From: a bacterium
GTDB taxonomy: Bacteria; Planctomycetota; UBA1135; GCA-002686595
Reading direction: 5' to 3'
Length of the DNA stretch: 60,583 nt
NCBI GenBank assembly: GCA_024226735.1
Contig: JAAELL010000023.1
Location: 1 to 60,583 of the forward strand
Part shown: piece by piece, positions 32,084 through 50,200 of the stretch
Position numbering within the stretch: the first letter of the stretch is position 1
Layout of the letters: the number at the start of each line of letters is the position of its first letter
The notes under the pieces: model-generated
The model's input: only the letters and a program-made list of their open reading frames with translations
Databases searched by the model: none
Told to the model about the DNA's origin: nothing
Position numbers and translations under genes: made by a program

Positions 32084-32176
32084 GCCGAGCGCCGCTTCCC
32101 TCTCCTGTGCCGGCGCGTCCAGCGGCTGGGGACGGCGCCGGCCAGCTCGGGCGGTGCTGGTGCAGATCGCGGACAA

Positions 32177-33676
32177 TCAGAAGGCACCGTGACCTCCAAG
32201 AACGACGCGCACCGTACGCAGGAGGATGTGCATCTCGAGCCAGATGGACCAGTTGCGCGCGTAGTAGCTGTCGAGCTCGACGCGCTCCTCGTAGGTCGTG
32301 TTGTTGCGACCGGAGATCTGCCACAGCCCCGTCACGCCGGGCCAGACCTTCTTGTAGAGCTCGAACGAATCGGCGTATTTTGCCACTTCGTCGTCGACGA
32401 TCGGACGTGGTCCGACCAGGCTCATTTCACCACGCAAGACGTTCCAAAGCTGCGGCAGCTCGTCGAGGCTGAGTCGACGCAAGAGCTTGCCAATCGAAGT
32501 GACCCGCGGGTCGTTCTTGAGCTTCTGATCCTTCTCCCATTCCGCGCGCAGCTCCGGGTCTTTCGCCAGGCACTCGTCGAGGGTTTTCTGGGCGTCCGGG
32601 ATCATCGTGCGGAACTTCCACACGTGCAGAACCTCACCGCCGCGGCCGATCCGTTTGTGGCGGAAGAAGACCGGGCCGCGCGAAGTGAGCTTGATCGCGA
32701 TCGCCAACGCCGCAACGAGGGGCACGGCCACGATCGATCCTAATCCGACGATCGCGAGATCGAGCACGCGCTTCTGGAAGCGGCACAAGGGGTGCAGCAG
32801 CCGGTCGCGCAGACGAACCCCCGACAGTCCGGCAGCGTAGAACTCGATGCCGGGAGGGAACGGGCTGTGGCTCAGTCGCGGCGAGAGGACGAGCAGATTG
32901 GCAACCCCGAGCTGGTCATGGTTGCGCCAAGCGTGCATGCCGTGCATGCCGTGCACGTCGTCGACGACGATCGCCCAGAAGGCGTGCTGGCGACGGGCGA
33001 GCGCGGCTGCCTCACGCGGTAGTGCCGCCGCCGAAGCGACACAATCCGAGTCCAGGAAGGCGACGGGCCGCAGGCCCGAGGCGCGGTTGCGCATGAGGGT
33101 CCGGTAGGTGTCCTCGCACTCGTCGCCGTTGCCGATCACGATCGCGCGCACGCCCCACCCATCGATGCGAGAGAGCAGCGCGCGGCCGACTTCCCGCCCC
33201 GCGGCGACCGACCAGATCGTCAGCAGCCACGCGCACGCCGCGAAGACGATCCACGTCGTGTGGGTGGGCAGCATCGTCACGGCGAGGATCGAGAACGACC
33301 CGAACAGGAGAGATACGCCGATCGACAATCGCTTGATCTCGACCGACGGACCCATTGCGGACCCGGGGTAGACCCCAAGGAGTCCGAGGAATAGTGGCAA
33401 GCTGAGCCCGAACGGCGTAAACGCCTCCAACGTGCCCGCGAACGACGCGAGACCGAAGGCCCGGAAGAGTCCCGCGATCACGAGGACGGGGGTCCAAAAT
33501 GAGACGAGGTCTACGACGATCAGCGGCAGGCTGGTCTTGGTGAGCTCGAGTACGTAGGCGAGAGCGTCGGAGCGCGGCTCACCCGCGTCAACCTTTGGCA
33601 GGTGTTCCTCAGGATGCGTGGGAGAGTCGAGTTGCGAAGCTCTCGACCGACTGGTAGACGGACCGAAGATAGTCAT
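32177..33676 (-). CDS. WbaP-like priming sugar-phosphate transferase
   Basis: Starts repeat-unit assembly by moving a sugar-1-phosphate from a nucleotide sugar to undecaprenyl phosphate. The 499-aa protein has four to five N-terminal TM helices, a CoA-binding-like cytoplasmic domain ([16 protein letters not shown]), and the C-terminal bacterial sugar transferase domain from about residue 295: KRVLDL, the re-entrant helix, [27 protein letters not shown] and LVGPRP. A small HGMHGMH repeat near residue 240 comes from a 9-base tandem duplication. Confidence 0.9.
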
Positions 33677-33700
33677 TCAAGGTGTTGCGGCAGGTGCGAG

Positions 33701-35776
33701 TCAAAGCGTTCGATACAGCCAAGACGGAATCGGGAAACGTCGCTTGTTGAGAACAGCGCCCAATAAGTTGACACTAGCCATCCTAAGCACGTCACTCGTC
33801 TTGTGCGCGACCTGCCAGCGAGTTTTGCCTGACTCGAGAACTATGAAGGAGACGTCACACGCCGACGCAAGCGCGGCGAACGAGTTGTGTGAAGTGATCT
33901 GCGGGAGATCGATCACGACGTAGGCGAACGACGCTGTCCACTCGCGCAGCAACTCCATCATCTCGTCGTGCGCGAAGCGGCCGAGCATTCGGTGCGATGC
34001 CGTTCCGCCCGGAATGACATGCATGTTGGGCGTGCGTAGCGGGTGCACTGGAGGCTTGGCTTTGCTGCGCCGCGCCAGTGCGTCCGAAATGCCTGGACGG
34101 GACTCTCCGAGCAGCGCGTCGCTGATGCGTGGATCCTCGAAGTTGGCGTCGACGAGCGCGACGTCGCCTTCGCCGCGCAGCGCGAGGGTCGCGGCCAGGC
34201 CGGCGGCCACCGAAGTGACGCCCGCGCCGGGCTGGCAGCCCGTGACGGCAACGAACTTGGTCGTCGAGCCCGAGCCTTGCGTGGCCAAGGTCACTTGCTC
34301 ACGCAACTCGCGGAACGGACGGCTGACCGAACGCGGGACTTGCCCGAGCTTCCAGTCCTCGAGCTCGGGAATCGACGCGAGGGCGCGGATGTTGACGCGC
34401 TCCTCGAGCTTGTCCGGCGAGTCGACCGCGTCGCTGAGGAACTCGAGCACGAACACGAGCATGATCGAGATCCCGAGGGCCATGAACAGACCCAGCGCGA
34501 GGAGCGGGACCTTTCCAGGACCGATGGGCTTGTCCGGGAGGGTCGCACGCTGGATCACGCTGATGTTGGAGATGCGTTCGCGGTGGAAGGCGCGTTGGAT
34601 GCGGGCCTGCTCCAGGCTCTCCTGGTAGCTGCGGTAGCTCTCTGCCTGGGTCTGGACGTTGCGGGTGAGCCGGTTGAGCTCCGCCTCGTTCGCGGACAGT
34701 TGCTTGAGCTCGTCACGCACCGAGCCGACCTGCGTCTCGAGGGCGTCCGCCTGGGCCTTCTGGCTCGACAGGAGCGCGCGCGCCTCGACCAGGCCCATCG
34801 TGGCCTGCTGGAGGTTGGGGTTGATCCCGCGCACGACCCGCGGGCCGCTCTGCACGTTCGCGATCATCTTCTCGGTGGTCTGGATGCGCGTTCGCACTTC
34901 CTGGACGGGTCGGCTCTCGTCCAGGTAGTCGATCAAGAGGTCCTGCTCGCTGATACGCAGCTCGTAGAGCCTCTGCTGGAGCGCCTTCAGCGTCCCGTCC
35001 TCGGCGCCGCTCGACTCGCTCACGATGACTTTCTGGGGGATGTCGCCGGCCAGCTCCTCGAGACGCGTGATGCGTGCCTCGGTGGACGCGACGGCGACGA
35101 TGGCCTGTTGGCGGCTCTGCTCGAGCGTGTCGATGCGATCGAGGAGCGCGGTGCGCTCTTGCTCGATCGAGGTCACGCCCATCTCGCTCTTGAGCTTGAA
35201 GAGCGAATCCTCCACGTCCTCGATCTCGCCCTCGAGTCGCTCCGTCTCTTGCAGGAAGAACTCGTAGGCGCCGGTGTTTTGGTGGATCTCGATGTGCTTG
35301 TCGAGGTAACGCTCGACGAGGACGAGCAGCACGCGCTGCGCGAACTCGGCCTCCTGCCCCGAGAACGTGAGGTTGATGACGTTGCTCTCGTCCTGAAGTC
35401 CGGGGCTGAGCTGGCTCTCGATGTCGTCGGCGTCGATCTGGATCGGGCCACTCGGATGCTCACCGGTCGCCAAGAGGTCCGACACCTCGTTGAGTAGCTC
35501 GTTGCTGGTCAGGATCTCCAGCTCGGAGTGCAGTTGGGCCTTGCGCTCGGTGTCGCTGCGGAACGAGATCGGATCGACGGCGGGGTCGATTCGCACCAAG
35601 AGCTTCGCGTCCGAGCTGAACACGTTGTCGCGCACGAGGACCAGCGCCGCGATCAAGGCGCTCATCAGCAGGAAGCACGTGATCGCCGTCTCGAGGTGTT
35701 TGAAAATGACGCGGTAGAGGTCCCGCAGCGAGAGGATCGAGATCCCCGCGCTCGTGTTGTTGTTCTCACCCGGCAT
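33701..35776 (-). CDS. Wzc-like chain-length/tyrosine-kinase protein with altered P-loop
   Basis: Controls export and chain length of the polysaccharide with the Wza-like channel. The 691-aa protein has an N-terminal Wzz domain with a TM segment near residues 28-50, a long coiled coil (about 175-400), a second TM near 422-445, and a cytoplasmic BY-kinase-like domain. The P-loop reads TGCQPGAGVTS near residue 510, with Val where Lys is expected. Walker A' (ALVDANFEDP) and Walker B (VVIDLP) remain, but the C-terminal Tyr cluster is missing. Phosphotransfer is therefore doubtful. The gene follows the Wza-like gene by one base. Confidence 0.85.
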   Translation of the reverse strand: MPGENNNTSAGISILSLRDLYRVIFKHLETAITCFLLMSALIAALVLVRDNVFSSDAKLLVRIDPAVDPISFRSDTERKAQLHSELEILTSNELLNEVSDLLATGEHPSGPIQIDADDIESQLSPGLQDESNVINLTFSGQEAEFAQRVLLVLVERYLDKHIEIHQNTGAYEFFLQETERLEGEIEDVEDSLFKLKSEMGVTSIEQERTALLDRIDTLEQSRQQAIVAVASTEARITRLEELAGDIPQKVIVSESSGAEDGTLKALQQRLYELRISEQDLLIDYLDESRPVQEVRTRIQTTEKMIANVQSGPRVVRGINPNLQQATMGLVEARALLSSQKAQADALETQVGSVRDELKQLSANEAELNRLTRNVQTQAESYRSYQESLEQARIQRAFHRERISNISVIQRATLPDKPIGPGKVPLLALGLFMALGISIMLVFVLEFLSDAVDSPDKLEERVNIRALASIPELEDWKLGQVPRSVSRPFRELREQVTLATQGSGSTTKFVAVTGCQPGAGVTSVAAGLAATLALRGEGDVALVDANFEDPRISDALLGESRPGISDALARRSKAKPPVHPLRTPNMHVIPGGTASHRMLGRFAHDEMMELLREWTASFAYVVIDLPQITSHNSFAALASACDVSFIVLESGKTRWQVAHKTSDVLRMASVNLLGAVLNKRRFPIPSWLYRTL

Positions 35777-35777
35777 G

Positions 35778-36509
35778 TCAGTTCCTCCGAATCCGGGTGT
35801 CCACGTCGAGCGAGTTGCCAGCCCCGAGGTCCGCCGAGTAGTTGAGGCCGAGCGTCGGCACCATCCTGTTGATGTGCTGGTCAATCCACTGGTTCATCTG
35901 GGAGATCCTGGATCTCGGTACGTAGACGATGTCGCGCGGCTGCAGATAGATCGGGGCGTGGTGTTCACCCGAGAACGCGGCCTCGAGGTTGGCGCGGTAG
36001 CCGACGCGGGATCCGCTCACTTCGCGGATGATCACGACGTCGCACATCGAGGCGAACTCCATGTCCGGCCCTCCGGCCTGCAACACGGCGCCCAGCGTCG
36101 TCATCGTGTCCGGCATCGGGACAGTCCCCGGCCGGTTGACTTCGCCTCCGACGAGGACGTAGCGGTCGGAGTAGGACTGGACGACCACGTTGACGTCGGG
36201 GTTGCGCAAGTGCTCGCCGTACGACTGGCGCAGGTCCTCGCGGACTTGTTCGATCGTCCTACCGGCGACGACCACGTCGCCGACGAGCTGTAGGGAGACG
36301 AGGCCGTCCGGCCCAACCGTCTGTACGTCGTTGAGCTCGGGGGTGTAGAAGAACCGGAACTCGACGACGCTGCCGGGGTGAATCAGGGCGCGGACAGCCG
36401 GTCCAGGGGCGCCCAGCGGCGCCGGCTCCAACTCGGGCTTCGGTCCGATGCACCCCAGCAGGGGTGTCATAGCGAGAATTGCCGTAGATAAGATGGTGGA
36501 GTGTTTCAT
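35778..36509 (-). CDS. Wza-like polysaccharide export lipoprotein
   Basis: Outer-membrane export channel component, 243 aa. The N-terminal signal ends in the lipobox LLGC near residue 20. The poly_export domain (about 45-120) has LIHPGSVVEFRFFYTPELN and VGPDGLVSLQLVGDVVVAG; an SLBB domain follows with RYVLVGGEVNRPGTVPM. It is shorter than E. coli Wza and lacks the C-terminal amphipathic helix, so it may need another outer-membrane partner. It is the first gene of the minus-strand export and assembly operon, and one base separates it from the Wzc-like gene. Confidence 0.88.
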   Translation of the reverse strand: MKHSTILSTAILAMTPLLGCIGPKPELEPAPLGAPGPAVRALIHPGSVVEFRFFYTPELNDVQTVGPDGLVSLQLVGDVVVAGRTIEQVREDLRQSYGEHLRNPDVNVVVQSYSDRYVLVGGEVNRPGTVPMPDTMTTLGAVLQAGGPDMEFASMCDVVIIREVSGSRVGYRANLEAAFSGEHHAPIYLQPRDIVYVPRSRISQMNQWIDQHINRMVPTLGLNYSADLGAGNSLDVDTRIRRN

Positions 36510-36895
36510 GTCGCGGCACGCAGGATTGCGGTGATCCGTGGCGCGAATACGCGGGTTCAGGGAGATAGCGGGTGGATTGGTCCCGCATGCATAGTGACCC
36601 GCCCTGGTGGAATGGCAAGTCGGACGAACATGATTCCCGCGCTGGGACCTTCTCGATGGGTGGCCGGCGCCGCGTCCACGTCGGCCGTGGCGCCACCAGC
36701 CCAGCCCCCGATTGGCCGGGTCGAGGGCCGGTTCTGGACCCGATCCAGGTCGCGCCCAGCTGAAAAATCGGCCAGGTGCAGAATCGAGAAACGGTTCGGG
36801 CGTCAAAGCGGATACATTACGGCAAGCCACGAAGGCTGGCTCCTGCCCTACTCTTCCACCCCTCGAATCCGATCCGTCAAGGACAAGGAGACGTC
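36510..36895. other. Divergent intergenic region, 386 bp
   Basis: Separates the Wza-like operon (minus) from a small lipoprotein gene (plus) and must carry promoters for both, but I see no clear -35/-10 or sigma-54 element. It contains a 10-bp perfect palindrome, GTGGCGCCAC (36687-36696), which could be an operator, and several G/C-rich partial repeats around GGCCGG. No gene is supported inside it. Confidence 0.5.
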
Positions 36896-37376: not shown

Positions 37377-39176
37377 TCAGCGCCTGACGAGGACCGCGAT
37401 GCCGAGCTGGTTGCGCGCGATCAACGGCGGGTTGCCGTACAGCGCGCTCTCTTTGTAGTGCCGGCGCACCCAGCGCATGATCTCGATTCCATAGTGCTGC
37501 CCGAAGAACGGGAAGCCGTACTCCGCGGTGTCCTTGTGGGCGATGACGATGTAGTCCGGATCACCCGCCCGCAGGGCTTCGAGGATCGTCTCCTCGCCGA
37601 AGAAGTACATCTCGGGCGGCATGAAGTTGTAGTACGGCGAGGGGTTCACGCTGCGCAGCAGGTAGTTGAGCATCACGCCCTCGGGTAGCACCAAGAGGGT
37701 CTCGCCCGGCTGCACGCGCTCTCTCAGATCGGCTAGCGCGACTTCGAATTCGCGGCCGCGCCACTTCGCGTTGGCGTGGAACACGTCCGCTCCCCAGCCG
37801 AGCTCGATCGTCTTGTCGGCGTACCACTTGTTGGAGCTGTGGACGTGGACGCCGACGAGGGCGACGAGTGAACCGAGCATCGCGGCGCGCAGCAGCGTGC
37901 CGCCCCGCGCCAGACGTGCCGGCACCACGTGTAGCGCCAGTCCAATCAGGACCAGCGTAGCGGGCAGTCCGAGGACGAAGCCGTAGTGCCGCAGGATCAG
38001 AGCGAGCACCATCTTCAGGGTGAGCGCACCCGCCAGCACGATCGCGCTCAGCTGGAGCGCGCGCCGGCCGTACGCGTCCACGTCGCCCCGTTCGACGACG
38101 AGCCTGACGACCACGATCGGCGCGAGGACCGCGAGCATCCCCGGCAGCGGGCGCCCCAGGCCGTTCCAGTGCGCGACGCCGAGCACGCCGCCCGCGCTCG
38201 CGAGGCCGGTGGCAAAGGCGGCCCAAGTCGTCTTGCGGCCAGTCCCCAGGCGCGCCGCCACGTGCCTCGCTGCCAGCGCGAATCCCGCGATGTACGCCGT
38301 GTATCCCAAGCCCCAGACGAGGGCCTTGCGCACGTTGGCCCACGGCCGGTTCGTGCCCATCATCGCCTCGTAGAACGGCAGCGCGCGCACGCGCTCATCG
38401 AACACGTAACGCCACGAACCGAGCGTGCCGTGCAGAGCTCCGTCGGCCGGGAGGTACGAGCGCAGCGCGAGCCAGCAGGCGAGCGGAGCGACGAGCAACC
38501 CGGCGGCGTGGGCGAGCGCGAGCCGCCCGCGCCGTCCCGTGCTCGAGCGCGCGCACAAGAGACACGCGACGAGTACGCCATCGGCGGCCGCGCCAGCGAC
38601 GAAGACCTCGGCCTTGGTCAGGAACGCGAGCCCGACGAGGACTCCGGCGGCGAACGCCCAGGGGACCGCGCGCGCACAGAACGCGCGCGCGAGGCAGGCG
38701 AGAGCGGCCAGCGAAAGCACGAACCCGTGGGTGATCTCGTGCGAGTAGGGACAGATGAAGTTGTAGTTCGCGATCGCCGCGTATTGCCCGAAGGCGAACA
38801 TGCCGAGAAACACGAAGACGGACGCCGCGGCGACCCAGCGGTCGGCGGCGCGGCGCGCCAGGTCGTGGAGCAAGAGCGCCGCCACGCACGTCAGGACGAG
38901 GTTGACGAGCGCGATGCTGCGCAGTGACGTGCCCAGCACGCGCATCCAGAACGCGTTCCAGTGCACCGAGAGCGGTCCGTTGAACCACGACTGGTCGACG
39001 TAGAGCCGGTCGCCTTCGATCAGCCGCCACGGCACGTAGAGCTCGCGCCCGAAGTCGACCTGCATGTCCGGCCAGTTGCCGTGGCTCCATGCGAACAGCG
39101 CGGCCGCGAGCGCACCGAATGCGAGCAGCTGCGCGAGGCGCACGGGCAGGGGAAGAGAGGGATCGCGCGCCGGCAA
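37377..39176 (-). CDS. GT39/ArnT-like membrane glycosyltransferase
   Basis: A 599-aa polytopic protein with about 11 helices and a C-terminal soluble part. The first periplasmic loop has QVDFGRELYVPWRLIEGDRLY with the acidic residues typical of GT-C enzymes, and SWFNGPLSVHWNAFWMR follows. The C-terminal 130 residues have GETLLVLPEGVMLNYLLR. It probably glycosylates protein or lipid from a polyprenyl donor. The start is uncertain: TTG 39176 is used, and GTG 39143 is possible. It begins 55 bases after the 17-haem gene and could be the last cistron of that operon. Confidence 0.7.
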   Translation of the reverse strand: MPARDPSLPLPVRLAQLLAFGALAAALFAWSHGNWPDMQVDFGRELYVPWRLIEGDRLYVDQSWFNGPLSVHWNAFWMRVLGTSLRSIALVNLVLTCVAALLLHDLARRAADRWVAAASVFVFLGMFAFGQYAAIANYNFICPYSHEITHGFVLSLAALACLARAFCARAVPWAFAAGVLVGLAFLTKAEVFVAGAAADGVLVACLLCARSSTGRRGRLALAHAAGLLVAPLACWLALRSYLPADGALHGTLGSWRYVFDERVRALPFYEAMMGTNRPWANVRKALVWGLGYTAYIAGFALAARHVAARLGTGRKTTWAAFATGLASAGGVLGVAHWNGLGRPLPGMLAVLAPIVVVRLVVERGDVDAYGRRALQLSAIVLAGALTLKMVLALILRHYGFVLGLPATLVLIGLALHVVPARLARGGTLLRAAMLGSLVALVGVHVHSSNKWYADKTIELGWGADVFHANAKWRGREFEVALADLRERVQPGETLLVLPEGVMLNYLLRSVNPSPYYNFMPPEMYFFGEETILEALRAGDPDYIVIAHKDTAEYGFPFFGQHYGIEIMRWVRRHYKESALYGNPPLIARNQLGIAVLVRR

Positions 39177-39231
39177 GATCCCGGGATCATAGCGACGCAG
39201 GTCGCGCGGAAGCGACTCCGGATGGCGGGAC

Positions 39232-40566
39232 TCAGTCGTCGCCGTCCGGATGGCACGCGAGACACGCCGGGCTGGAGTAGACGTAGCCGGGCACGTCGTC
39301 GTGCTCGTCGTCCGTCTCGCTCTGGCGGTGCTCGTGGCAGTCGATGCAGGAGAACTGTGGGAAGGAGCCCGTCGTGTGGCAGTCGATGCAGTCGAAGTTC
39401 GAGTGGTCCCCGTTGTTGATCGGGAAGCTGTGGTTCCAGCTCGTGTTGTGCCAGTTGCTCGTGTTGTGGCACACCTCGCAGGCCGTCGGGAAGCCGACCT
39501 GCTGGTGGTCGGGATCGGAGGTGTTGGCGTAGTCGTCCGCGTGGCAGTCGATGCACCCGTTGGAGATCCCGCCGTGATCGAACGACGCGGGCGTCCAATG
39601 CAGGGTCGAGTGGCACTGCTGGCACTCGGTCGGGAACATCTCGGCCTGGTGGTCGGGATCGGTCGTGGCGTTGTAGTCGTCGAGGTGGCAGGTGATGCAC
39701 GGGCTCGAAACCCACGCGTGATCGAACTGTGCGGGCGTCCAGCCCCCCGTGCCATGGCAGCGGTCGCAACGCAGCGGGATGCCGAGCGCGACGTGGTCGG
39801 GATCCAAGGCCCCGTTGTAGTCGTCGAGGTGGCAGGCCGAGCAGTCGCGCGGCGTGCCCGAGAAGACGCCACCGACGTGGCAGTCCTCGCAGTCGGTCGT
39901 GCGGTGCGCGCCCGTCAGCGGGAACGTTCCGTGGTTGAAGCCGCCGCCGGTCCACGTCGTCGGGATGTGGCAGCGGTCGCAGCTGGAGACCCAGCCCTGG
40001 CCGATGTGATTCGGCGACTGCGCGCGCGCGAGGTCGTCCGCATGGCACGTGACGCACTCGGTGTCCGCGTGGGAAAAGTCGCCGACCTGCGCGCCGGGAT
40101 GGCAGCGCCAGCAGGCGGCTGCCGCGTGCGCCCCGACCAGCGGGAAGCGCGTGCTGTTGTGCATCGCGATCACGCCCGTCGGCCGCCAGTCGAGCTCGCC
40201 GTGGCAGTCCTTGCAGTTCTGTCCGAGCTCCCCGCGGTGCACGTCCTCGTGACATCCCGCGCAGCCGCGTGCCGCGAACGTCGCGACCGGTCCGCGGTCA
40301 TTGTGGCAGCGCAGACACTCCGCGCTCGCGTGTGCACCGTCGAGCGCGACCCCGGTTCGGGCGTAGTGGTCGAACTCGAAGTCGTCGCGGATCTCGTGCC
40401 AGCTCTCGCCGATGTGGCACAGCGTGCAGTCGGCTGGAAACGAGTCGTGCGGGATCACGGGCCCGCGATCGTCCCACCACTTCTGGACCGGACCGCCGTA
40501 GCGCCCACCCGAGACGCACGCGAGGACCGCGAACAGTGCCGCGCCCGCGAGGAAGCCTCGGCGCAT
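39232..40566 (-). CDS. 17-haem c-type cytochrome lipoprotein
   Basis: A putative outer-membrane electron-transfer lipoprotein, 444 aa from ATG 40566, with signal MRRGFLAGAALFAVLAC whose lipobox is VLAC. I count 17 CxxCH motifs, from CTLCH near the N-terminus to CLACH before the C-terminal DGDD, and many extra His residues for axial ligation. Repeats of about 40 residues recur in the form CH.DDY....DPDH....FP..C..CH. An ATG at 40605 overlaps the barrel gene stop and would add 13 residues. It probably sits outside the barrel encoded just upstream. Confidence 0.88.
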   Translation of the reverse strand: MRRGFLAGAALFAVLACVSGGRYGGPVQKWWDDRGPVIPHDSFPADCTLCHIGESWHEIRDDFEFDHYARTGVALDGAHASAECLRCHNDRGPVATFAARGCAGCHEDVHRGELGQNCKDCHGELDWRPTGVIAMHNSTRFPLVGAHAAAACWRCHPGAQVGDFSHADTECVTCHADDLARAQSPNHIGQGWVSSCDRCHIPTTWTGGGFNHGTFPLTGAHRTTDCEDCHVGGVFSGTPRDCSACHLDDYNGALDPDHVALGIPLRCDRCHGTGGWTPAQFDHAWVSSPCITCHLDDYNATTDPDHQAEMFPTECQQCHSTLHWTPASFDHGGISNGCIDCHADDYANTSDPDHQQVGFPTACEVCHNTSNWHNTSWNHSFPINNGDHSNFDCIDCHTTGSFPQFSCIDCHEHRQSETDDEHDDVPGYVYSSPACLACHPDGDD

Positions 40567-40604
40567 CCGCGCTCCGCGCCCGTCCGTCGTGTTCCGTGCG
40601 CCCA

Positions 40605-42242
40605 TCAGAAGCTCCGCTGCAGATAGAGGCCCAGGGTCCGCGAGTCCTGCTCGTCGCCGAACCGCTCTTCACCGAATACCGAGACGCTCCAGTCCCGACC
40701 GACGTTCATGTCCCAGCTCGCCCGCAGCCTGTGTTGGGTCAAGCTCTCTTGGTCTCCGTCGAACCTGCTCTGGGCGAAGTCGGCGATCTCCCACTGCACG
40801 GACCAGAAGCCCTTCTTCGTCGTCCCGCGCGCAGTGATCCGCGCGCCCTGGGTGTCGCTGAACTCTCCGCCCGAGTCGAAGAGCGCGAGGGAGAGCTCGC
40901 CGCGGTCCCACAGGAGGTCGCGCACGCTGCCCGCGATCTCGCCCGAGGTCCCCGAGCTGTCGTCGTCGTCCCAACGGTCGATCCGCGCGCTGAGGCGCAC
41001 GTTCTTGGCGACGTGCTTCCAGCCGCTTACTCCGACGCGGTTCAGCTCGTTGTCGGCGAGCTCTTGCGCCGTGACTGGCGTGAACTCGTCGCGCAGGAGC
41101 TCGGGAAACCGGATCTGGCTTGCCGTGAGCGACACGCCGTCGCCCGCGGTGCTGGTCACCGTCGCCCCCAGGTTGAGGTCGGTCAGCTCGAAGCCCGACG
41201 ACTTCGCCTCGTCCTCGCTGCCGTAGTGGTCGACCCGCGCCGTGCTCCAGAAGTACAGCCCGCGGCGGGGACGGAAACGTAGCTTGCCGACGAGCAGGTC
41301 GCGGTCGGACTCGCCCTCGTGCCACGTCTTCTGGAACGCGGCCCCCGCTTCGAGCTCCTGGTTCTCGCCCGCGGTGTGCGTGTAGTAGACGGACGTCTGG
41401 AAGTCGTCGCCGCTCTCGAAGTCCTCGTTCAGCTCCGGCATGAAGCCGGCGCTGAACCCGACACGGTCACCGTTGTCGAGGCGGCGCGTGTACTCGGCTC
41501 CGTCCAGCACGCCGAGCTCGGGGAACTCGTTCTGGAGAAAGCGCCCACCCTGAACGCGTTGCGGCGTCTCGCGCACACCGCCGTAGACGTAGGAGAAACG
41601 GTCGAGGCGTAGGCGGCTCTCGTCTTCGTCGTCCGCGTCGTCCCCTTCGAACGAGCGCGTCCACAGCTCCACATCGAAGTCGAGCTCGCCTCCGCGACCG
41701 AACGGGTTGCGCACCGCCATGTCGAGCCCCGTGCGCCCGAGCTCGTGCTCGCTACTCGAACCCTCGTCGTCGCGGGTCCAGTCGTATTGGGCGTAGAGGC
41801 GGCCACGGAAGTCCATGTCGCGCTCCGCCGCGGCGCGTACGTAGCCCGGAGTGAGCAAGGGCTGCTCGGGATCGAAGTCCTCGACGGGGCGCTCCCACGG
41901 AGGGTGTTCGTCGTCCTCGCTAGGGCCCGCTCGCGCTGCGGGCACGTGCACTTCGCACGGTGTACCGGGCGTCAAGCCGTCCGTGTTGGACAGCACCAGC
42001 TTCGCCCTCTGCTCGGTGACCGTGCCGATCGCGCCTTCGATGCGGCCGCGGCCGGGGGGAAAGAGGAGCACGCGATCGCCGGGCTCGACGCCGTGCTCGG
42101 TGCCGACGTCGATCTCGACCGCGGGTCCGACGACTCCCGTCACGCGCGCATCGACGCGCACGGGCACTTGATCCTGCGCCGTGGCGTGCGGTGCACAGGC
42201 TAGGGCGACGGCGACGATCATCAAGTGAATGAGCTTCGTCAT
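40605..42242 (-). CDS. Outer-membrane beta-barrel protein with N-terminal SH3-like domain
   Basis: A 545-aa protein with a signal peptide ending near HATAQ. Residues 25-105 form a small beta domain (TGVVGPAVEIDVGTEHGVEPGDRVLL). From about 130 to the end it shows alternating amphipathic strands rich in Asp, Arg, Trp and Tyr, closing with LGLYLQRSF; a C-terminal Phe is the outer-membrane insertion signature. There is no CxxCH or CxxC, so it is not an MtrB orthologue by motif. Position between two multihaem cytochromes suggests it is the porin of a porin-cytochrome conduit. The stop overlaps the cytochrome ATG at 40605. Confidence 0.82.
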   Translation of the reverse strand: MTKLIHLMIVAVALACAPHATAQDQVPVRVDARVTGVVGPAVEIDVGTEHGVEPGDRVLLFPPGRGRIEGAIGTVTEQRAKLVLSNTDGLTPGTPCEVHVPAARAGPSEDDEHPPWERPVEDFDPEQPLLTPGYVRAAAERDMDFRGRLYAQYDWTRDDEGSSSEHELGRTGLDMAVRNPFGRGGELDFDVELWTRSFEGDDADDEDESRLRLDRFSYVYGGVRETPQRVQGGRFLQNEFPELGVLDGAEYTRRLDNGDRVGFSAGFMPELNEDFESGDDFQTSVYYTHTAGENQELEAGAAFQKTWHEGESDRDLLVGKLRFRPRRGLYFWSTARVDHYGSEDEAKSSGFELTDLNLGATVTSTAGDGVSLTASQIRFPELLRDEFTPVTAQELADNELNRVGVSGWKHVAKNVRLSARIDRWDDDDSSGTSGEIAGSVRDLLWDRGELSLALFDSGGEFSDTQGARITARGTTKKGFWSVQWEIADFAQSRFDGDQESLTQHRLRASWDMNVGRDWSVSVFGEERFGDEQDSRTLGLYLQRSF

Positions 42243-44572
42243 CGCTGGCTCCTCCGCTCTTGGTCGCGCAAGAAGCGATCGAGCGGCCCGCCGCCTCCCT
42301 GGCGCTTCTTCTTGCCCCCGATCCCCGGATCGTGGCAGTCCGCGCACTCGCGCCCGAGCGGACGGTAGCGCACGGCCTCACGCCCGTCGGCGAGCCGCCA
42401 GGCGACGTGGCACGCCGAGCACGCGAGCCGCTCGTGGACCTCGTCGAGCGCGAAGCGCGCGTCGTTCTCGTGGTCGAACGTGAGCTGCTCGAAGCTCGCG
42501 GCCGCGGTATGGCAACGCGCGCAGTCCGTGCTGCCGCTCTTGGCGAATTGCCCGACGTGCGGGTCGGCGTGGCAGTCGCTGCACGCGGTGCCTGGCGCAT
42601 GGCCGAACGTCCGTCCGCGCTCGTCGGGCGCGGTCGACGCGTGGCAGTCGGTGCAGGCAGTGGCGTTGTGTGCGCCGAACAGCGGAAAGCCCGTCGCGCG
42701 GGCGTGGTCGAAGCTCTCGTCGCGGACCTCGTGGAAGGTCTCCGTCGTGTGGCAGCGTGCGCAATCGGTCGTGCCCGCCGCCGCGAAGACGCCGCCGTGG
42801 GGGTCGACGTGGCACGTCGCGCAGGACTCGACCGAACCGGGAAAGGTCTCGCTCGCCCGTGCGAAGCTCCGGCCCGTGGCGCCTGGCTGCGGCGTGCGCG
42901 GGTGGCAGGTCGCGCAGGAGGTACGCGCGTGCCCCCCGTCGAGGACGAACCCGGTCCATGCGCCGTGGTCGAAGTCCGGCACGTCGGCAAACGAATCCTG
43001 CGTGTGGCAGCGGGCGCAGCTCGCCTGGTCGCCAACGACCGCCGGCCTGCTGGCGCCGGTGAACGCGCCGCCGTGGGGGTCGGCGTGGCAGGTGCTACAG
43101 CGATCGGTATTCCCGGGGAAGTGCTCGGCGACTCGCCCGAAGCGCCGACCGAGCGCGTCGGGCCGCGGGGCGGGAACGTGGCACGTCTCGCACTCGAGCG
43201 CCGCGTGCGCGCCGGCGAGCGGGAACCGCGTCCACGCGTCGTGGTCGAACGACGTACGCGCTGTTTGCTCGAAGCTCTCGGTCGTGTGACAGCGCGCGCA
43301 CCCCTCCGCGTCGGGCCGACGCGGAGGGCCGAGCTCGTCGAAGGCGCCCTCGTGCGCGTCCGCGTGGCAGGCCTCACAGGCGTTCGGGGTGCCACGGAAC
43401 GTCCGCAGCGCATCCTTCGACTCGTCCGCGAGAACGTGGCAAGCGTGGCACTCGGTCGCACCGTGTGCACCGGCGAGCGGGAAGGCCGTCGCGGCGTGCT
43501 GCTCGACGTCGAAACCGTGCGGCGCGAAGGAAGTCGGGTGGCAGGTCACGCAAGCCGCGCTCGGCACCGCGTCGAACTGGCCCCCGTGCGGGTCGTCGTG
43601 GCAGGCGGCGCAGTCGTCGGCACGGCGCCCGGGGTGGCGCGCGGCGAACGTCGCGCCCGCGTGACAGTCCGCGCAGGCGACTCCGTCGTGGGGCGGCGTC
43701 AACGGGAAGGAGGTGAGCGCGTGCAGATCGCTCTCCATGTCCGTGGCCGGACCGAACCCACCGTCAACCGCGGTGTGGCACGCGCTGCACGTGGTCGCGC
43801 CGTCAGCGTCGAATCCATCGTCGTGGGGGGAGTCGTGGCACGCGGAGCAGCCGCGCACTTCCGGCGCACCGTGCTCGAGTGCCATCGCGATCGAGCGCTC
43901 TCCACCTGTCTCGTGACACGCGGAGCACACGATTTCGGCGTGTGCGTCGCTCAAGGCGAACTGCGGGGTGTGCGCGAACTCGGCGACTTCCGCGAAGGGG
44001 CGCTCCTGGCCGTGGCAGCTCTCGCAGTCGTGCGACATGTCGCCTCCGTGCGGGTCCTCGTGGCAGCGCGCGCAGTCGTCCTCGAGTCCGAGGAAGCGCA
44101 CTTCACCTGTCGCGAGGAACGGAGCGTTCGCGAGCGGGTGGCACTGCTCGCACGTCAGCGACGCGTGCGTTCCGTGCAGATCGAACGCGAGCCCGTCGTG
44201 GTCGTACGCGTCCCGGTCCGCGATTCCCGCGACGGTGAATGCGTGCTCACCGGCGAGCGCGAGGTTGGCTCCCTCGTGTTCCAGGTGGCACCGCGCGCAG
44301 AGCCTCGCGTCCTCGAGCAGGCCGTGGAAGCCCGAGCGTGCCTCGAGCTGCTCTCCGATCACCGTGTGGCACCCGATGCAGCTCTCGGCGAGCGCGTCGC
44401 GCTGGGCGCCGTGGCAGGAGCTGCACCCGTCGTCTCCGGTGAGGCTGGCGACCTGAGCGTGCGCGGCCGAGAGCTCGCCCGGTGTCGTTCGTTCGAGGTC
44501 GACGTAGACGAGCCCGGTGACGATGGCCATGGACAGCAGGCCCAGCCAGAGACGCGGATCGGCAATCTTCAT
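42239..44572 (-). CDS. 26-haem c-type cytochrome, membrane-anchored
   Basis: A 777-aa multihaem cytochrome with one N-terminal hydrophobic segment (residues 8-25) and no clear cleavage site, so probably anchored in the inner membrane with the rest in the periplasm. I count 26 CxxCH motifs, from CSSCH near residue 50 to CADCH near 750. From residue 300 on, a module of about 75-85 residues repeats: CARCHTTESF, FDHDAWTRFPLAGAHA, CETCH, then CSTCHADPHGGAF. The stop overlaps the barrel gene ATG and the start overlaps the oxidoreductase stop (both ATGA). It is likely the electron wire between the inner-membrane oxidoreductase and the outer-membrane barrel. Confidence 0.9.
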   Translation of the reverse strand: MKIADPRLWLGLLSMAIVTGLVYVDLERTTPGELSAAHAQVASLTGDDGCSSCHGAQRDALAESCIGCHTVIGEQLEARSGFHGLLEDARLCARCHLEHEGANLALAGEHAFTVAGIADRDAYDHDGLAFDLHGTHASLTCEQCHPLANAPFLATGEVRFLGLEDDCARCHEDPHGGDMSHDCESCHGQERPFAEVAEFAHTPQFALSDAHAEIVCSACHETGGERSIAMALEHGAPEVRGCSACHDSPHDDGFDADGATTCSACHTAVDGGFGPATDMESDLHALTSFPLTPPHDGVACADCHAGATFAARHPGRRADDCAACHDDPHGGQFDAVPSAACVTCHPTSFAPHGFDVEQHAATAFPLAGAHGATECHACHVLADESKDALRTFRGTPNACEACHADAHEGAFDELGPPRRPDAEGCARCHTTESFEQTARTSFDHDAWTRFPLAGAHAALECETCHVPAPRPDALGRRFGRVAEHFPGNTDRCSTCHADPHGGAFTGASRPAVVGDQASCARCHTQDSFADVPDFDHGAWTGFVLDGGHARTSCATCHPRTPQPGATGRSFARASETFPGSVESCATCHVDPHGGVFAAAGTTDCARCHTTETFHEVRDESFDHARATGFPLFGAHNATACTDCHASTAPDERGRTFGHAPGTACSDCHADPHVGQFAKSGSTDCARCHTAAASFEQLTFDHENDARFALDEVHERLACSACHVAWRLADGREAVRYRPLGRECADCHDPGIGGKKKRQGGGGPLDRFLRDQERRSQR

Positions 44573-46788
44573 CTCGCGAACATTCCCCCGAAGCGCAAGG
44601 CCGTGACGATGTGCGCGACGACGAGCAGCACCATCGCCAGTGCGATCCAACGATGCAGGTAGCGCCAGGAACCCATCAGGCCGCGCAGGTCCTCGTAGTG
44701 CGCCGCCATCAGGGACGCACGGTGTGCTCGGCGCGCGAGCGTGAGCACGGCCTGCACGTGTTCGCGCGCGACTCCTTCGCGTTCTCCGACCTCGCGCAGC
44801 TCCGTGAGCGTGCGGGCCAGCCTGCGTTGGCCGAAGACGAGAGCGCCGAGCCGACGCAGCGTCGAACCGTGCCAGCGCCCGTGATCGATCAAGGCCTGAA
44901 GCTCGTCGCGCACGCGCGCTCCGAACTCGCGGTGGCTGCGCTCCCATTCGCCCGACAGCGTCGCGAGTGAACTCTTGACTTCGTCGAGCGCAAGCTCACG
45001 CCCATTCGCCGCGCGCGGCACGAACGCGTAGAAGTAGCGCCCGATCGCACCGGTGACGATGAGGATGCCGAGCGCCGCGAGCGCGTGGCCCCCAACGGTG
45101 TGCCGCGGCGCGAGACCGGCGTGCAAGAGCGCCAGCACGAGTGCTAGAACGCCTGTCGCGACGTGCACGGTCATCCAAGCTGTCAGCGCGCCGAGCTCGA
45201 AACGCAGGCGCGGAGAGCGGCGTACCAAGTAGGCGAGGTTTGTCGCGATCAGGGCCGTTGCGCCGATGCCGAGTCCTAGGCCGATGCCGCGCGACGGTCG
45301 CAGGGTCTCGTGCAGGGCGTGCGCGGCCCGGCCCAGCGCGTCGGCGGCGTAGTAGTCGCGGTTCAGCAGCGTCCAGGCCAGAGCCCCCACCGAGAACAGG
45401 AAGGCGAACGAGAGCGCCGGCAGGAGCCCGGAGCCGCCCGCAGTCAGCGTCTCCTGCGCCGGCCGATCGGCGGCGTCGAACGACACGCCGCTCTGCTCGA
45501 GGAGCTTGAACGGTGGCACACCGCCGGCCAGGACGAAGACGTCGTCGTTGGGGATGCGCAGGAACTCAGGTGCATCCTCGGGGCCCTGCTCGAGCTGAAC
45601 GTGGTCGGGCTCGATCACGCGTACGCGACTCTCGAACACGGCGCGGATGCGGCCCGCTTGGAGGGCCTCCAGGATCCGCGCTTCGTTGCGCGCCTTGATG
45701 CGGACGAAGGCCTTGCGGCGGTACGACAGCGTCACGGCGTTGTTGCCTCCCTCCGCCAGGCCGAGCGCAGCTTCGATCGCGCTGTCTCCGCCGCCGACGA
45801 CGAGCACGCGACGGCTCGAGTACGAGGCGGCGTCGACGAGGCCGTAGGCGACCTTGGGCAGCTCCTCGCCGGGGACTCCGAGTTTGCGCGGCGTCCCGCG
45901 CCTGCCGAGTGCGAGGCAGACGTGACGGGCACGGATGAGGTCGGTGCCGAACGGGATTTGGAAGATGCCGCGCGCGTCCCGGTCGAGTCCGATGAACGCA
46001 GCGCCCGTGCGGATCGGGAGATCGTGAGTCGCTACGATCTCGGTCCACAGCTCCATCAGCTCTTCCTTCCTGTACGTCGTCCGCGAGAGCCGGCCGTGCA
46101 AGGGCAGCTCGGCGGGTTGGGTCATGACGAGCTTCTTGCGCGGATACTTGGAGACCGTGCCACCGAGCTGCTCTTGTTCGAGCGTGATGTAGTCGAGCCC
46201 GTGCGCGGTCGCTTGTAGCGAGCAGGCGATGCCCGCCGGGCCGGCCCCGACGATGCACAGCTCGTGCACACCTTCATCCACGGGACCCGCCTCCTTGGCG
46301 CGCCGCGCGACCTCGCTGGCGACCGCGGTGCCGTGGGCGATCGCGGTCCGGATCAACGCGTAGCCAGTCACCTCGCCCGCGAGGAATAGCCCCGGTACGC
46401 CCGCCGTCTCCAGCTCACCCGTCAGCGCCGGGATGTCGTTGCGTTCCGAGAGATCGCCGAGGGTGATCGCGATGGCTCCGACCGGGCACTCGCGCGCGCA
46501 GCGACCGTGCCCGACGCAGCGCGCACCGTGGAGGACGAGCGATTGACCGTGCACGAGGCCGAGCACGCCCTCTTCGGGACAGGCGGCGACGCAGGTGCCG
46601 CAGCCGATGCAGCGCGACAGGTCGACGTCGGGGTACTGCAGCCGCGCGCGGTGGGTGCCGCGTTCACGCGCCTCGTCGCGGGCCTCGATGCTGGTCGCCA
46701 TCCGAGCGAGCTCTCGCCTGCGCGCGACGAGAGAGGCCAGGACCGCCGCAAGGACGGTGACGACGGAGATCAAAGTGAGCCAACTCAT
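44569..46788 (-). CDS. Membrane FAD/NAD(P) oxidoreductase with ferredoxin and cytochrome-b-like domains
   Basis: A 739-aa multidomain redox protein. After an N-terminal TM helix comes a two-cluster ferredoxin domain (CIGCGTCVAACP near residue 58, CVGHGRCARECP near 92). Next is a thioredoxin-reductase-like flavin domain with CIVGAGPAGIACS near 177 and the NAD(P) motif VLVVGGGDSAIEAAL near 327, but no CxxC disulphide. From about 450 there are four TM helices with His in HVATGVL, ALLHAG and GGHAL, a soluble helical insert, and a last helix LHRWIALAMVLLVVAHI, resembling a di-haem-b membrane domain. It is first in the cytochrome operon and probably the electron entry point. In the second cluster His replaces one Cys. 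Confidence 0.85.
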   Translation of the reverse strand: MSWLTLISVVTVLAAVLASLVARRRELARMATSIEARDEARERGTHRARLQYPDVDLSRCIGCGTCVAACPEEGVLGLVHGQSLVLHGARCVGHGRCARECPVGAIAITLGDLSERNDIPALTGELETAGVPGLFLAGEVTGYALIRTAIAHGTAVASEVARRAKEAGPVDEGVHELCIVGAGPAGIACSLQATAHGLDYITLEQEQLGGTVSKYPRKKLVMTQPAELPLHGRLSRTTYRKEELMELWTEIVATHDLPIRTGAAFIGLDRDARGIFQIPFGTDLIRARHVCLALGRRGTPRKLGVPGEELPKVAYGLVDAASYSSRRVLVVGGGDSAIEAALGLAEGGNNAVTLSYRRKAFVRIKARNEARILEALQAGRIRAVFESRVRVIEPDHVQLEQGPEDAPEFLRIPNDDVFVLAGGVPPFKLLEQSGVSFDAADRPAQETLTAGGSGLLPALSFAFLFSVGALAWTLLNRDYYAADALGRAAHALHETLRPSRGIGLGLGIGATALIATNLAYLVRRSPRLRFELGALTAWMTVHVATGVLALVLALLHAGLAPRHTVGGHALAALGILIVTGAIGRYFYAFVPRAANGRELALDEVKSSLATLSGEWERSHREFGARVRDELQALIDHGRWHGSTLRRLGALVFGQRRLARTLTELREVGEREGVAREHVQAVLTLARRAHRASLMAAHYEDLRGLMGSWRYLHRWIALAMVLLVVAHIVTALRFGGMFAR

Positions 46789-46822
46789 GCTGATTCGCGC
46801 CGTGTTGGCGCCACCGACACGA

Positions 46823-46838
46823 AGCAATAGCGGTGCCA
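46823..46838 (-). promoter_or_regulatory. Sigma-54 (-24/-12) promoter of the cytochrome operon
   Basis: On the minus strand the sequence TGGCACCGCTATTGCT matches the sigma-54 consensus TGGCAC-N5-TTGCW at every fixed position, with GG and GC 10 bases apart. It predicts transcription starting near 46812, about 24 bases before the oxidoreductase ATG at 46788. The divergent gene encodes a sigma-54 activator, which fits a dedicated regulator. Confidence 0.85.
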
Positions 46839-46903
46839 GGGGACGCACGGCACGCAGGAGGCCCGCGCCGATCGGTTCATCGACCCATGGGCCCGTTGCG
46901 CGG

Positions 46904-46919
46904 ATTACCGTTGCGTAAT
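46904..46919. promoter_or_regulatory. Candidate enhancer palindrome ATTAC-N6-GTAAT
   Basis: An ATTAC...GTAAT palindrome with a six-base centre (CGTTGC) lies about 92-107 bases upstream of the predicted sigma-54 start, the usual enhancer distance. A second CGTTGCG lies 15 bases to its left (46894). Arms are only five bases, so this is suggestive rather than firm. Confidence 0.45.
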
Positions 46920-47205
46920 GGGCCGTGCGTGCGGTCCGTCGGCGCGCACGAGGAGAAAGCCGAAGACCCTGCCGGAGCCCGCGATGCGTCCGCGGCCACC
47001 CGGTGGGCCGATGAAGATGTGCACCCCCGGCGCGCCGCGGGCCGCTACGCGCGGGCCGAATGGGTCGCCGTGCACTGAGACCCACCTCATGAGCATTCCG
47101 CGCCTGCACGGAACGAGCGAAGCGAACGGTCCCCCCTTCGAATGCGCAACTATACGTAGCGCGCGCTCCTCGTCCTCGTCCAGAATCTGGACGGACATCC
47201 ACGAT

Positions 47206-50200
47206 ATGGATCGCGACGAACCCTTGATCAGCCCCACCTTCGGGTCCGCCGAGGAGCCGGCCCCCGGATACCGAGGGGTACGCGAGCTCGCGCGGCGGCC
47301 CGGCGTGTGCGTGCTCGAGGCCGATCACGGCGGCCGGCGCGTGGCTCTGCGCCTGGTCGAGCGCGCCGAGACCGCCGAGTTCCTCGCGGAGTTGGCGGTG
47401 TTGGCGGCCGTATCCCACCCGGGTCTCGCGCGCCTCGAGGGTCACGGCGCGCTCGAGGGCGGTGGTGCGTACGTCGCCCGCACGTGGATCGAAGGCGAGC
47501 CGCTCAGCAGCTGGGCCCGCGAGCGTTCGCCCGACGAAATCGCGTGTCTCGTCGTTCAGCTCGGCCCCGCGCTCGAGCACCTGCACGAGCGCGGCTTCGT
47601 GCACGGCGACCTCAAGGCCGCCAACGTTCTCGTGCAGTCCGACGGCCGACCGGTCATTACCGACTTCGGTCTGTCACACGACTTCCGCGGGTCGCGCCGC
47701 AGCAGCGATGTATCCGGGAGCCTGCTCGCGCTTGCTCCCGAGCTCCTGCGCGGCGCGCCTCCGACACCGCGCTCCGACGTGTTCGCGATCGGCGTGATGC
47801 TGCACGGGCTCCTGGTGAGCGAGCCGATCGACGGACGTCGCTTCTACGGCCACTTTCCGTCCGAGCCGTTCCTCGAAGCTGCACGGACGCCGTTGGATTC
47901 GCTTCCGGAGTGGGCGCGCACGTGGCTCGAGCGTACGCTCGCACGCGACTCCGCGCGGCGGCCGGCATCCGCTTCGGGCGCGCTGCGCGAGCTCGCGCGT
48001 GAGCTGGGTGTGCGGGCCGCTTCCGAACACGGCTGCGTGCGATTGGCGCTGATGCCTTCGGACGCCTGGGGCGATTTCGTCCGGACGCGAATCGAAGTCG
48101 GTGTGGGGGAGCCCGAGTGGTGGCGCACGTCGGACGCCCAGGACGCGCTGCCCCTCGTGACGCACGCGTCCGTCGAGGCGAGCCTGCGCGGTGCGTGCTC
48201 GCTGTTCGTCGACCTCGACACCGAGCTGGCGCGCTTCGACCACGCGCTGGCGCTCGACGCTTGGTGCGAGGGAGTCCTCGCCCGCGCGCGCGGCGGGTGC
48301 CTGTGGATCGCGAGCGTCACGTCGACGGACTGGGCCGCGCGTGCGCTCGCCTCGTTCAGGCGAGCGGGCTCCGGGATGCGCATCGTCGCCGCTGGCTCGG
48401 GCGCCGCGCCCGAACGGTGGTGCTCACACGCGGTCCCGCCGATCGAGGAGCGGCACGTGCTCGCGCTGCTGGAGGCGCAGCTCGAGGGCGACGGCGACGA
48501 GCGCTTGGAGACGCTGGCCGCGCGACTGCACGCCGAATCCGGCGGCTCGGTCGCCGTACTGGACGAGCTGCTCGCCGAGCTCGTCGCCGACGGCTCGATC
48601 CTGTTCGGCGACGAGCGGCCGCGGCTGCGCACCGGTGCACTGCCGGCCTGGGCCGGTCGCGGCCGCGGCCAGGGCCGCAATGAACGCGCCCGAGCGGCGA
48701 CGGAGACGCAGATGCGGCTCTTGGCCGCGCTCGGGGTTTTGCGCGGCACGGCGCCGCTGCACGTGGTGCAGGACGTCAGCGGGAGCGCGACGTTCGGCGC
48801 CGACGTCGAGGCCGTTTGTCGGGCGGATCTCGCGCGTCTCGAGCATCGTGGACGCGAAGTCGTACTGACCGCACTCGTCGGCGAAGCGAGCCTCGAGCTC
48901 GATCCCGAGCTCTCGCGTGAGCTGCACGCGCGCGTAGCGGAAGTGCTCGCGGCAAACGACGCGCCCAGGGGCCGTGTGCTCGCCCACCGCTACAGCGCGC
49001 AGCCCGGAGCTGCCGCGCTCGAGAGCGTGCTCGAGGCGGTTCGCGCCCTGCGCGAGCGCGGCTCGAGCGAGCTCGCGCTCGAGCTCGCGAGCACGGTCGC
49101 CGCCGCGATGCGCTCGAACGGCACGGGCGAGGACCCGCGGCTCCAGGCCGAGCGCGCGATCGCGTGGTCGACGCTCGGTGCAACCGACCGGGCGCTCGAG
49201 GCGGCGACCGCGCTCGAGGGCACCGGCACCGACCAGGCGCGCGCGCTCGTCGAGTGCATCCGCGGGCACGTCGCGCATCGCTTGCGGCGCCCGGGAGATG
49301 CGCTGATGCACTTCGGCCGGGCGGCGCGACTCGATCCGGAGTGCCGGCCCGATGCACTGCAAGCCACCGCGCTCGTGCTCTACGAGGGGCGCGAGGACGC
49401 GCGGCTGCAGGAGCTCTCGGCGGAGATCGACGCTGGTCGGCACGGTGCGCTCCCGGAGCCGTTGGAGCTCAACGTGCGCTCGATGGCGGCGATGAGCCGC
49501 TACCGCACGGGGGACACGCGCGCCGCCGAGCGAGAGCTCGCCCGGATCCTCGCGCGCGCGAGCGAGCTCGACGAGCCGGCCGCCGAGGCGGCGTCGCACC
49601 TCAACCACGGCAACCTCGCCCGGGCGCGTGGCGGCGTGAAGGAGAGCCTCGAGCACTTCCAGCGCGCAGAGGCCGCCTACGTGCGCGCGGGACACCTCTT
49701 GGGCGTTGCGCAATCGCGCACGCTGCTCGGGGCGGCGCTGCGCGACGTCGGGAGGCTCGGCGAGGCGGAGGCGCCGCTCCTGTCGGCGCTCGGCATCCGC
49801 GAACGTGCCGGAGACATCGCGGGCGCCGCGGCGGTGCGCGGGATGCTCGGCTGGCTGCACCTCGAGCGCGGGCACGTGCGCACGGCGGCGATCGAGCTCG
49901 AGGGCGCCGCGCCGGAAGTCGAGGCGGTCGGGCGGACTCTCGAAGCGGCGCTCCTGCGAGCGCTCGCGCTCGAGGCCCGGTCGCGGCTCGGTGCGCGGCC
50001 GGAGCTCGATGCGGCGCTCGTCGACGGGGCGGAGCGCGAGCCGCGGCTCGCGAACGCGCTCGCGCGCGCGGCGCGCGCGCAGGACGATTCGGACAGCGTG
50101 AGCCGGTTCGCTGACGCCGCCGCTCGAGCGGCGGATCACCTCGACCGCCCCGCCGTGGCTGCCGAGGCGCGCTACCTGGCCTCGGGAGTGCTCTCCGAAG

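Follow-up and report, generated by a model that had tools for sequence, protein, structure and literature searches.

A planctomycete operon with a fused NAD(P)H/ferredoxin module and the parts of a predicted PCC3-like porin-cytochrome conduit

Among described porin-cytochrome clusters, the system considered here comes closest to PCC3, which He et al. proposed in 2017 for Sideroxydans, Leptothrix and other Proteobacteria: a barrel, highly multihaem cytochromes outside the cell and in the periplasm (median numbers 34 in the distal and 21 in the periplasmic protein) and a five-helix inner-membrane protein of ∼300 amino acids (PMC5566968). The inner-membrane protein carries the motif WX3HX13H twice, together with SGXXG. 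The authors interpreted it as a cytochrome b that might act on quinones and hypothesised a link of the clusters to quinone; the available text gives the clusters no function (PMC5566968). In the accessible text of that paper ferredoxin is mentioned 0 times and the list of PCC3 parts holds no such protein; other redox proteins are described next to PCC4 and to further clusters that have membrane proteins of this kind (PMC5566968). Here we analyse an operon from a planctomycete genome, on contig JAAELL010000023.1 of assembly GCA_024226735.1 (the window, i.e. the whole analysed stretch, covers positions 1 to 60 583), in which an inner-membrane domain of the PCC3 type is fused to a flavin adenine dinucleotide (FAD)/ferredoxin module. 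We consider it fairly probable that the operon encodes a PCC3-like conduit with a built-in entry for reduced nicotinamide adenine dinucleotide (phosphate), NAD(P)H, through which electrons would be exported across both membranes to an extracellular acceptor.

The operon consists of four minus-strand genes (39232–46788). In the direction of transcription these are the FAD/ferredoxin/five-helix fusion (gene 1, 44569..46788, 739 amino acids), a 26-haem cytochrome predicted to form a periplasmic wire (gene 2, 42239..44572, 777 amino acids), an outer-membrane barrel (gene 3, 40605..42242, 545 amino acids) and a 17-haem cytochrome, a predicted outer-surface lipoprotein (gene 4, 39232..40605, 457 amino acids). 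The genes overlap by 1–4 bases; the coding-strand junctions are GATGA at the first two and TGATG at the third. A preliminary description of this DNA had reported four overlapping minus-strand genes with 43 haem sites and an FAD/ferredoxin oxidoreductase as built-in entry module, in a likely planctomycete. All of this agrees with our analysis: CXXCH motifs number exactly 26 in gene 2 and 17 in gene 4, Pfam recognises both redox domains (below), and related loci occur in genomes of the same family as well as in the Planctomycetes isolates Pla163 and Pla86, whose loci coincide in position with genomes listed in that family. The span it gave, 37377–47205, includes the operon but is too wide: 37377–39231 is a gene for a PMT_2-type glycosyltransferase (Pfam), and the most likely start of the FAD gene, judging from where homology begins, is 46788 and not 47202–47205. 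Gene content, motifs, repeats, conservation, the fusion and the neighbourhoods were read from sequence; the barrel fold and membrane helices were predicted.

After an N-terminal hydrophobic stretch, gene 1 encodes a ferredoxin-like part (residues 53–111; 46456..46632, minus strand) and a YpdA/TrxR-like FAD/NAD(P)-binding domain (residues 176–446; 45451..46263, minus strand), matching Pfam Fer4_7 (2.3e-10) and Pyr_redox_3 (2.4e-37). In the 4Fe-4S dicluster region the first iron-sulphur (Fe-S) site reads CX2CX2CX3CP and the second CX2HX2CX3CP, with His replacing one Cys; 70 of 83 scored relatives have His at this place and none of the 83 has Cys, which suggests a His-ligated or three-iron cluster. 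The nearest solved structure to the FAD domain is the bacillithiol disulfide reductase Bdr, in which the Cys of the GPCG motif is an active-site residue. The FAD domain has GPAG at this position, and Ala stands at the place of the Cys in 71 of the 83 relatives (the pattern is absent in 9); the curated YpdA/Bdr profile gives 151.9 bits, with a cut-off of 339.9. Function as a disulfide reductase was rejected because of this Ala; since Bdr's Cys is missing, the FAD domain is probably an electron donor to the Fe-S sites instead.

The PCC3-type inner-membrane domain (44572..45441, minus strand) is of putative b-haem type. The last 302 residues of gene 1 gave a predicted model with five membrane helices (mean predicted local distance difference test score, pLDDT, 89.7); WX3HX13H occurs twice, on transmembrane helices TM3 and TM5, and TGAIG lies on TM4. 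The Pfam match, to DUF4405, is weak (27.2 bits, cut-off 26.7). Both WX3HX13H motifs were present in 52 of 54 fused open reading frames (ORFs), which had been gathered with no selection for motifs; of the other two, one is cut off (L052) and one has a single motif (L058). The residue before GXXGR in the 54 is T in 49, S in 4 and A in 1. In the alignment of membrane domains (the window and 49 of 64 references) invariance of the motif W and H residues is by construction, as the 64 were chosen for carrying both motifs. When 87 membrane domains were placed in a tree, a single branch (support 100/99.8, with a bootstrap not fully settled) divided the 54 fused forms from the 33 others. By this tree, the fused forms make one clade.

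Outside this clade the two halves of gene 1 occur as separate proteins. At E up to 1e-12, 32 of 185 gammaproteobacterial genomes have the membrane domain as a stand-alone protein; of 37 such places 20 were fetched, the strongest except one already included (two of them, L126 and L129, are nearly identical). All 20 membrane proteins (293–394 amino acids, stop to stop) carry both WX3HX13H motifs and SGXXGR, and all 20 genes precede an 18–24-haem cytochrome. A homologue of the FAD-ferredoxin half was found at ≤1.2 kb from the membrane-protein ORF in 16 of the 20 and at ≤8.5 kb in 18; at L115 it is split over two ORFs. In Emticicia oligotrophica DSM 17448 the pair is unfused in adjacent genes on plasmid pEMTOL02, in a row made of a CcsA protein, the membrane protein (281 amino acids, both motifs), the FAD-ferredoxin protein (440 amino acids), 23-haem and 40-haem cytochromes and a barrel (538 amino acids). 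Short membrane proteins on a Methylophaga and a Bradyrhizobium plasmid adjoin FAD/NAD/2Fe-2S or NAD/2Fe-2S proteins and a 7-haem cytochrome, so that another type of NAD-binding partner recurs, with the reservation that these relatives are remote (25–27% identity; WX3HX13H count one and none). With cytochromes, the PCC3-class pair was seen in at least five phyla: Planctomycetota, Pseudomonadota, Calditrichota, KSB1 and Bacteroidota. Fusion in one lineage and neighbourhood in others is a classic sign of two proteins working together, and because of the fusion and the conserved neighbouring FAD-ferredoxin gene, NAD(P)H rather than quinone is likely to be the entry point.

Two other features of these clusters may be mentioned. 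The Emticicia plasmid cluster begins with a CcsA-type gene of cytochrome assembly (L137, 5770–8856), so haem attachment may travel with the cluster. Next to the FAD-ferredoxin or membrane-protein gene of six gammaproteobacterial clusters (L117, L121, L124, L125, L130, L133) stands an ORF of ∼650–950 amino acids with Sel1-like and ankyrin-like repeats, as judged by eye; no such ORF was seen in the window's operon.

Related loci were collected in a scan of a genome collection with an alignment of three fusion proteins, the best 80 of 140 relatives being kept. Of 61 close genomes (that of the operon included), 40 match at E up to 1e-150, and in the own family 29 of 37 do so; at 0.001 as many as 60 of the 61 match, many to the reductase domain only. 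The order fusion, cytochrome with 18 or more haems, barrel, cytochrome is kept at every one of the 39 fusion loci with 6 kb or more of downstream sequence (L100, classed as a fusion from its length only, lacks downstream sequence and does not count among the 39). The idea of a conduit, advanced in the preliminary description, has thus held against the conservation data. The source assembly (9.0 Mb, 612 contigs, 88.8% complete) has a second complete set on another contig (C142): fusion, 23-haem cytochrome, barrel, then 7-haem and 11-haem proteins. Two partial sets are on contigs C333 and C250, which overlap inside the barrel gene with differing protein sequences there; they may represent one operon from mixed strains or two copies.

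In the 26-haem protein all 52 Cys residues belong to CXXCH motifs; 500 shuffles of its sequence gave 0.27 motifs on average and 2 at most. Its haem-site segments resemble each other at lag 3 (mean +9.8) and lag 6 (+4.2), and lags 1, 2, 4 and 5 score −21 to −26. Among 57 ORFs with 20, 23, 26 or 29 motifs the best lag was 3 in 39, 6 in 17 and 2 in 1; among 24 gammaproteobacterial ORFs with 18, 21 or 24 motifs it was 3 in 12, 6 in 9, 2 in 2 and 4 in 1. The cytochrome next to the fusion (47 rows) has 26 haems in 25 rows, 23 in 19, 29 in 2 and 24 in 1, and in the 20 gammaproteobacterial loci the cytochrome adjoining the membrane protein (CX2-4CH counts) has 21 in 15, 24 in 4 and 18 in 1. The wire thus seems to lengthen or shorten by whole three-haem units. 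A partial two-haem repeat is present in the 17-haem protein (lag 2, mean +2.1).

The N-terminus of the 26-haem protein looks, by eye, like a membrane anchor, which points to a periplasmic location. Membrane-anchor-like N-termini were seen by eye throughout the proximal 23–29-haem group at 23 loci; behind them comes a stretch resembling PG-(P/E)-L, which in the window reads TTPGELS. The only Cys of gene 4 outside the haem motifs sits in a lipobox-like stretch, FAVLAC; the gene likely starts at 40566, and its product is predicted to be an outer-surface lipoprotein. Most distal cytochromes at the 23 loci likewise appeared lipoprotein-like, with a stretch GPV(V/I)PH..FPADC that the 11-haem proteins do not have. 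Two layouts recur: a single large distal cytochrome, as in the window (10–34 haems away from contig ends), or a 7-haem protein (14 rows), which in 11 of the 14 is followed by an 11-haem protein. One could argue that such cytochromes serve mainly as an electron store in the envelope or for redox protection, the barrel being an ordinary porin, and the wide range of distal haem numbers, 6 to 34 (the 6 at a locus whose downstream sequence is shorter than 6 kb), would agree with it. We regard this as very improbable given the strict operon order, the lipobox-like N-termini of the distal cytochromes and the recurrence of the barrel family beside these genes in several phyla. The genome encodes proteins of the cytochrome c assembly family.

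Two further cytochrome ORFs were noted in these clusters. The 11-haem protein that follows a 7-haem lipoprotein-like gene at L020 (7190–9952) has ∼920 amino acids, and an ORF of 1721 amino acids within the PCC3-like cluster at L115 (660–5822, minus strand) has 70 CX2-4CH motifs.

The AlphaFold model of the barrel (mean pLDDT 88) has 22 counted strands, a small N-terminal domain and a C-terminal Phe. No Pfam family matched it, nor did any NCBIfam family at E up to 0.01; a Foldseek search with the model retrieved 271 PDB chains at E up to 0.001. The barrel alignment comprised the window's sequence and 45 of 53 references (8 were omitted as cut, fragmentary, near-duplicate or remote). A barrel profile matches ORFs at loci of Calditrichota, KSB1, Ignavibacteria, Krumholzibacteria and Emticicia, whereas at the 20 gammaproteobacterial loci it matched, with E up to 10, no ORF of at least 100 amino acids. 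Across the evenly sampled phylum, 24 of 199 genomes have the barrel at 1e-15. Candidates for porins of the gammaproteobacterial loci, chosen by the crude rule of a C-terminal aromatic residue and few Cys, appeared in only 9 of the 20 stretches (630–908 amino acids); the one candidate scanned had SPOR and TPR matches.

These parts would fit together as follows. Cytoplasmic NAD(P)H would reduce FAD, from which electrons would pass to two Fe-S clusters and on to a pair of b haems that span the inner membrane in a stack and are held by the membrane-domain His pairs 105/275 and 119/289. The b haems would reduce the membrane-anchored periplasmic wire of 26 c haems in three-haem modules; the far end of the wire would enter the 22-stranded outer-membrane barrel and meet the 17-haem lipoprotein at the outer surface, which could deliver electrons to an extracellular acceptor (metal oxide, humics, oxygen or another cell). 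We infer the order of electron flow, its outward direction, formation of a complex, surface exposure, the acceptor or substrate and the function.

The preliminary description left open whether electrons are exported or taken up. We prefer outward flow because, by general bioenergetics, it would run downhill in potential and with the membrane potential. Uptake, with extracellular Fe(II) or a cathode feeding electrons inward to NAD(P)H, has the occurrence of PCC3 clusters in some Fe(II) oxidisers in its favour (PMC5566968); transfer from Fe(II) to NADP+ would have to climb in redox potential and oppose the membrane potential, and the operon appears to have no energy-coupling subunit. Besides, as far as the available text of a study of Sideroxydans lithotrophicus goes, one PCC3 cluster was largely undetected and the other was at similar levels in all samples, except for its extracellular cytochrome (PMC12016527). 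The conduit logic of the preliminary description is kept; uptake is, on thermodynamic grounds, a quite improbable direction.

Several observations weigh against NAD(P)H-driven export through such a conduit. The assignment of b haems rests on the motifs, as a PDB fold search with the model of the membrane domain gave helical-bundle noise and no relative at E < 0.1. The 50 listed of the 271 PDB chains found with the barrel model are outer-membrane barrels of general likeness only (TMq ≤ 0.44), with no MtrB among them; the barrel was not identified as a known unrelated porin either, so the conduit idea is not refuted on this ground. At two loci (L093, 2668–4998; L098, 9722–12152) FAD-ferredoxin and membrane-protein genes adjoin with no protein of at least three CXXCH motifs in the available stretch; there the pair may have another partner. 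Finally, two of the 20 gammaproteobacterial neighbourhoods (L121, L131) have no FAD gene within the fetched stretch. Together with the published reading of the same motifs as those of a cytochrome b that may act on quinones (PMC5566968), this last observation would suit a quinone-linked conduit as in He et al. (2017), whose five-helix domain exchanges electrons with the quinone pool, the FAD-ferredoxin module regulating it or serving as a side entry. That the module is fused in one clade and closely linked in other groups speaks against it, and we consider a quinone-linked conduit rather unlikely.

With NAD(P)H entry preferred, one could speculate further that NAD(P)H, not quinone, drives PCC3-class conduits in general, which would make them bacterial equivalents of NADPH oxidase whose electrons leave through a periplasm-spanning haem wire and a barrel, with the planctomycete fusion as the revealing link; we hold this extension only tentatively. 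If it were true, cytoplasmic NADPH would be wired directly to the outside across two membranes. An NAD(P)H entry, to which the fusion and the neighbouring gene point, changes the direction, energetics and substrates to be expected. Extracellular electron transfer would also extend to a little-studied planctomycete branch. Cultured carriers make the hypothesis testable: the Planctomycetes isolates Poly30, Pla163 and Pla86 (two membrane-domain matches each) and E. oligotrophica DSM 17448.

As to the surroundings of the operon, the glycosyltransferase gene (37377–39176) was rejected as a part of the conduit, having no homologue among the ORFs of loci L019–L101. Exopolysaccharide-type genes, for a glycosyltransferase, a sugar transferase, a GNVR-domain protein and a Poly_export/SLBB protein, lie at 30950–36830. 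A divergent gene at 46918–52038 encodes a regulator with Ser/Thr kinase, GAF, sigma-54 activator and Fis-type helix-turn-helix domains. It had six matches in the L019–L101 ORFs: three adjoin the FAD gene, and the other three either are weak or lie elsewhere. At L046 a long homologue flanks the operon, upstream of the FAD gene; sigma-54-type ORFs downstream of the FAD gene at L077 and L081 match the sigma-54 part only. With only 3 of 6 matches adjoining the FAD gene, the regulator is not supported as a conserved partner.

Among known systems, MtrCAB, MtoAB and PioAB resemble the window's operon in combining a barrel with a periplasmic and an outer cytochrome. The 26-haem protein is not a decahaem cytochrome and has a weak match to the DmsE/MtrA-type profile TIGR03508 (76.3 bits, cut-off 192.2). 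CXXC is a feature of MtrB/PioB (TIGR03509); the window's barrel has no NCBIfam match, and its ORF has 2 Cys in all and no CXXC, as the preliminary description had said in denying it the MtrB-type Cys motif. A search of the whole genome for MtrB gave no match, with the search's controls also silent. Haem number, profile scores and barrel rule out membership in MtrCAB, the difference from which had been rightly noted.

PCC4, whose subgroup II includes Planctomycetes, shares with the window an inner-membrane protein with the same motifs and adjoining genes for other redox proteins; in one Oceanospirillum PCC4 the Fe-S and membrane-protein genes are annotated as one, which the authors thought were possibly two (PMC5566968). 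Unlike the window, PCC4 has 4-, 5- and 10-haem periplasmic cytochromes and, as far as described in the accessible text, no extracellular one (PMC5566968); the cytochromes rule out membership in PCC4. In another group a ferredoxin-NADP+ reductase gene lies near the porin-cytochrome cluster in 7 of 11 cases, read as potential functional coupling; those clusters differ from the window in that, in the text available, the cytochromes are large decahaem proteins and the reductase is a separate gene (PMC13264449, 2026). Iron-reduction genes have been reported in four Planctomycetota metagenome-assembled genomes (MAGs), with a porin-cytochrome complex in MAG OFTM248 (PMC10732223); ten of our related loci bear MAG names of the OFTM form. 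A description of the fusion or the operon was not found among the titles, abstract openings and passages covered in the open-licence literature, some result lists comprising the first 20 of up to 140 papers, and with subscription-only papers and preprints outside the scope.

With PCC3, compared via its published motif description, the operon shares the five-helix protein with WX3HX13H on TM3 and TM5, the large periplasmic multihaem cytochrome (26 motifs; location by N-terminus), a distal cytochrome and a barrel; with 17 haem motifs and a lipobox-like stretch the distal protein is a candidate for an extracellular cytochrome. The operon differs in having TGAIG in place of SGXXG, a domain of a 739-amino-acid fusion in place of a protein of ∼300 amino acids, the NAD(P)H/ferredoxin module fused to the inner-membrane protein, the gene order cytochrome-barrel-cytochrome, and a wire of 23, 26 or 29 haems versus 18, 21 or 24 in gammaproteobacterial PCC3-like loci. 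The barrel is of another family than in the latter loci, so that by its porin the operon does not fall within PCC3. Of the undescribed type claimed in the preliminary description, three features thus belong to PCC3 (PMC5566968), namely the membrane domain, the very large cytochromes and the logic of the operon, and what stays distinct is the fusion and the barrel family. The window's system would work like PCC3 and share its inner-membrane part, with a different porin; by sequence comparison we take it as a probable variant within an already known, though uncharacterised, class of outer-membrane conduits, to which it adds the NAD(P)H/ferredoxin fusion and another barrel family.

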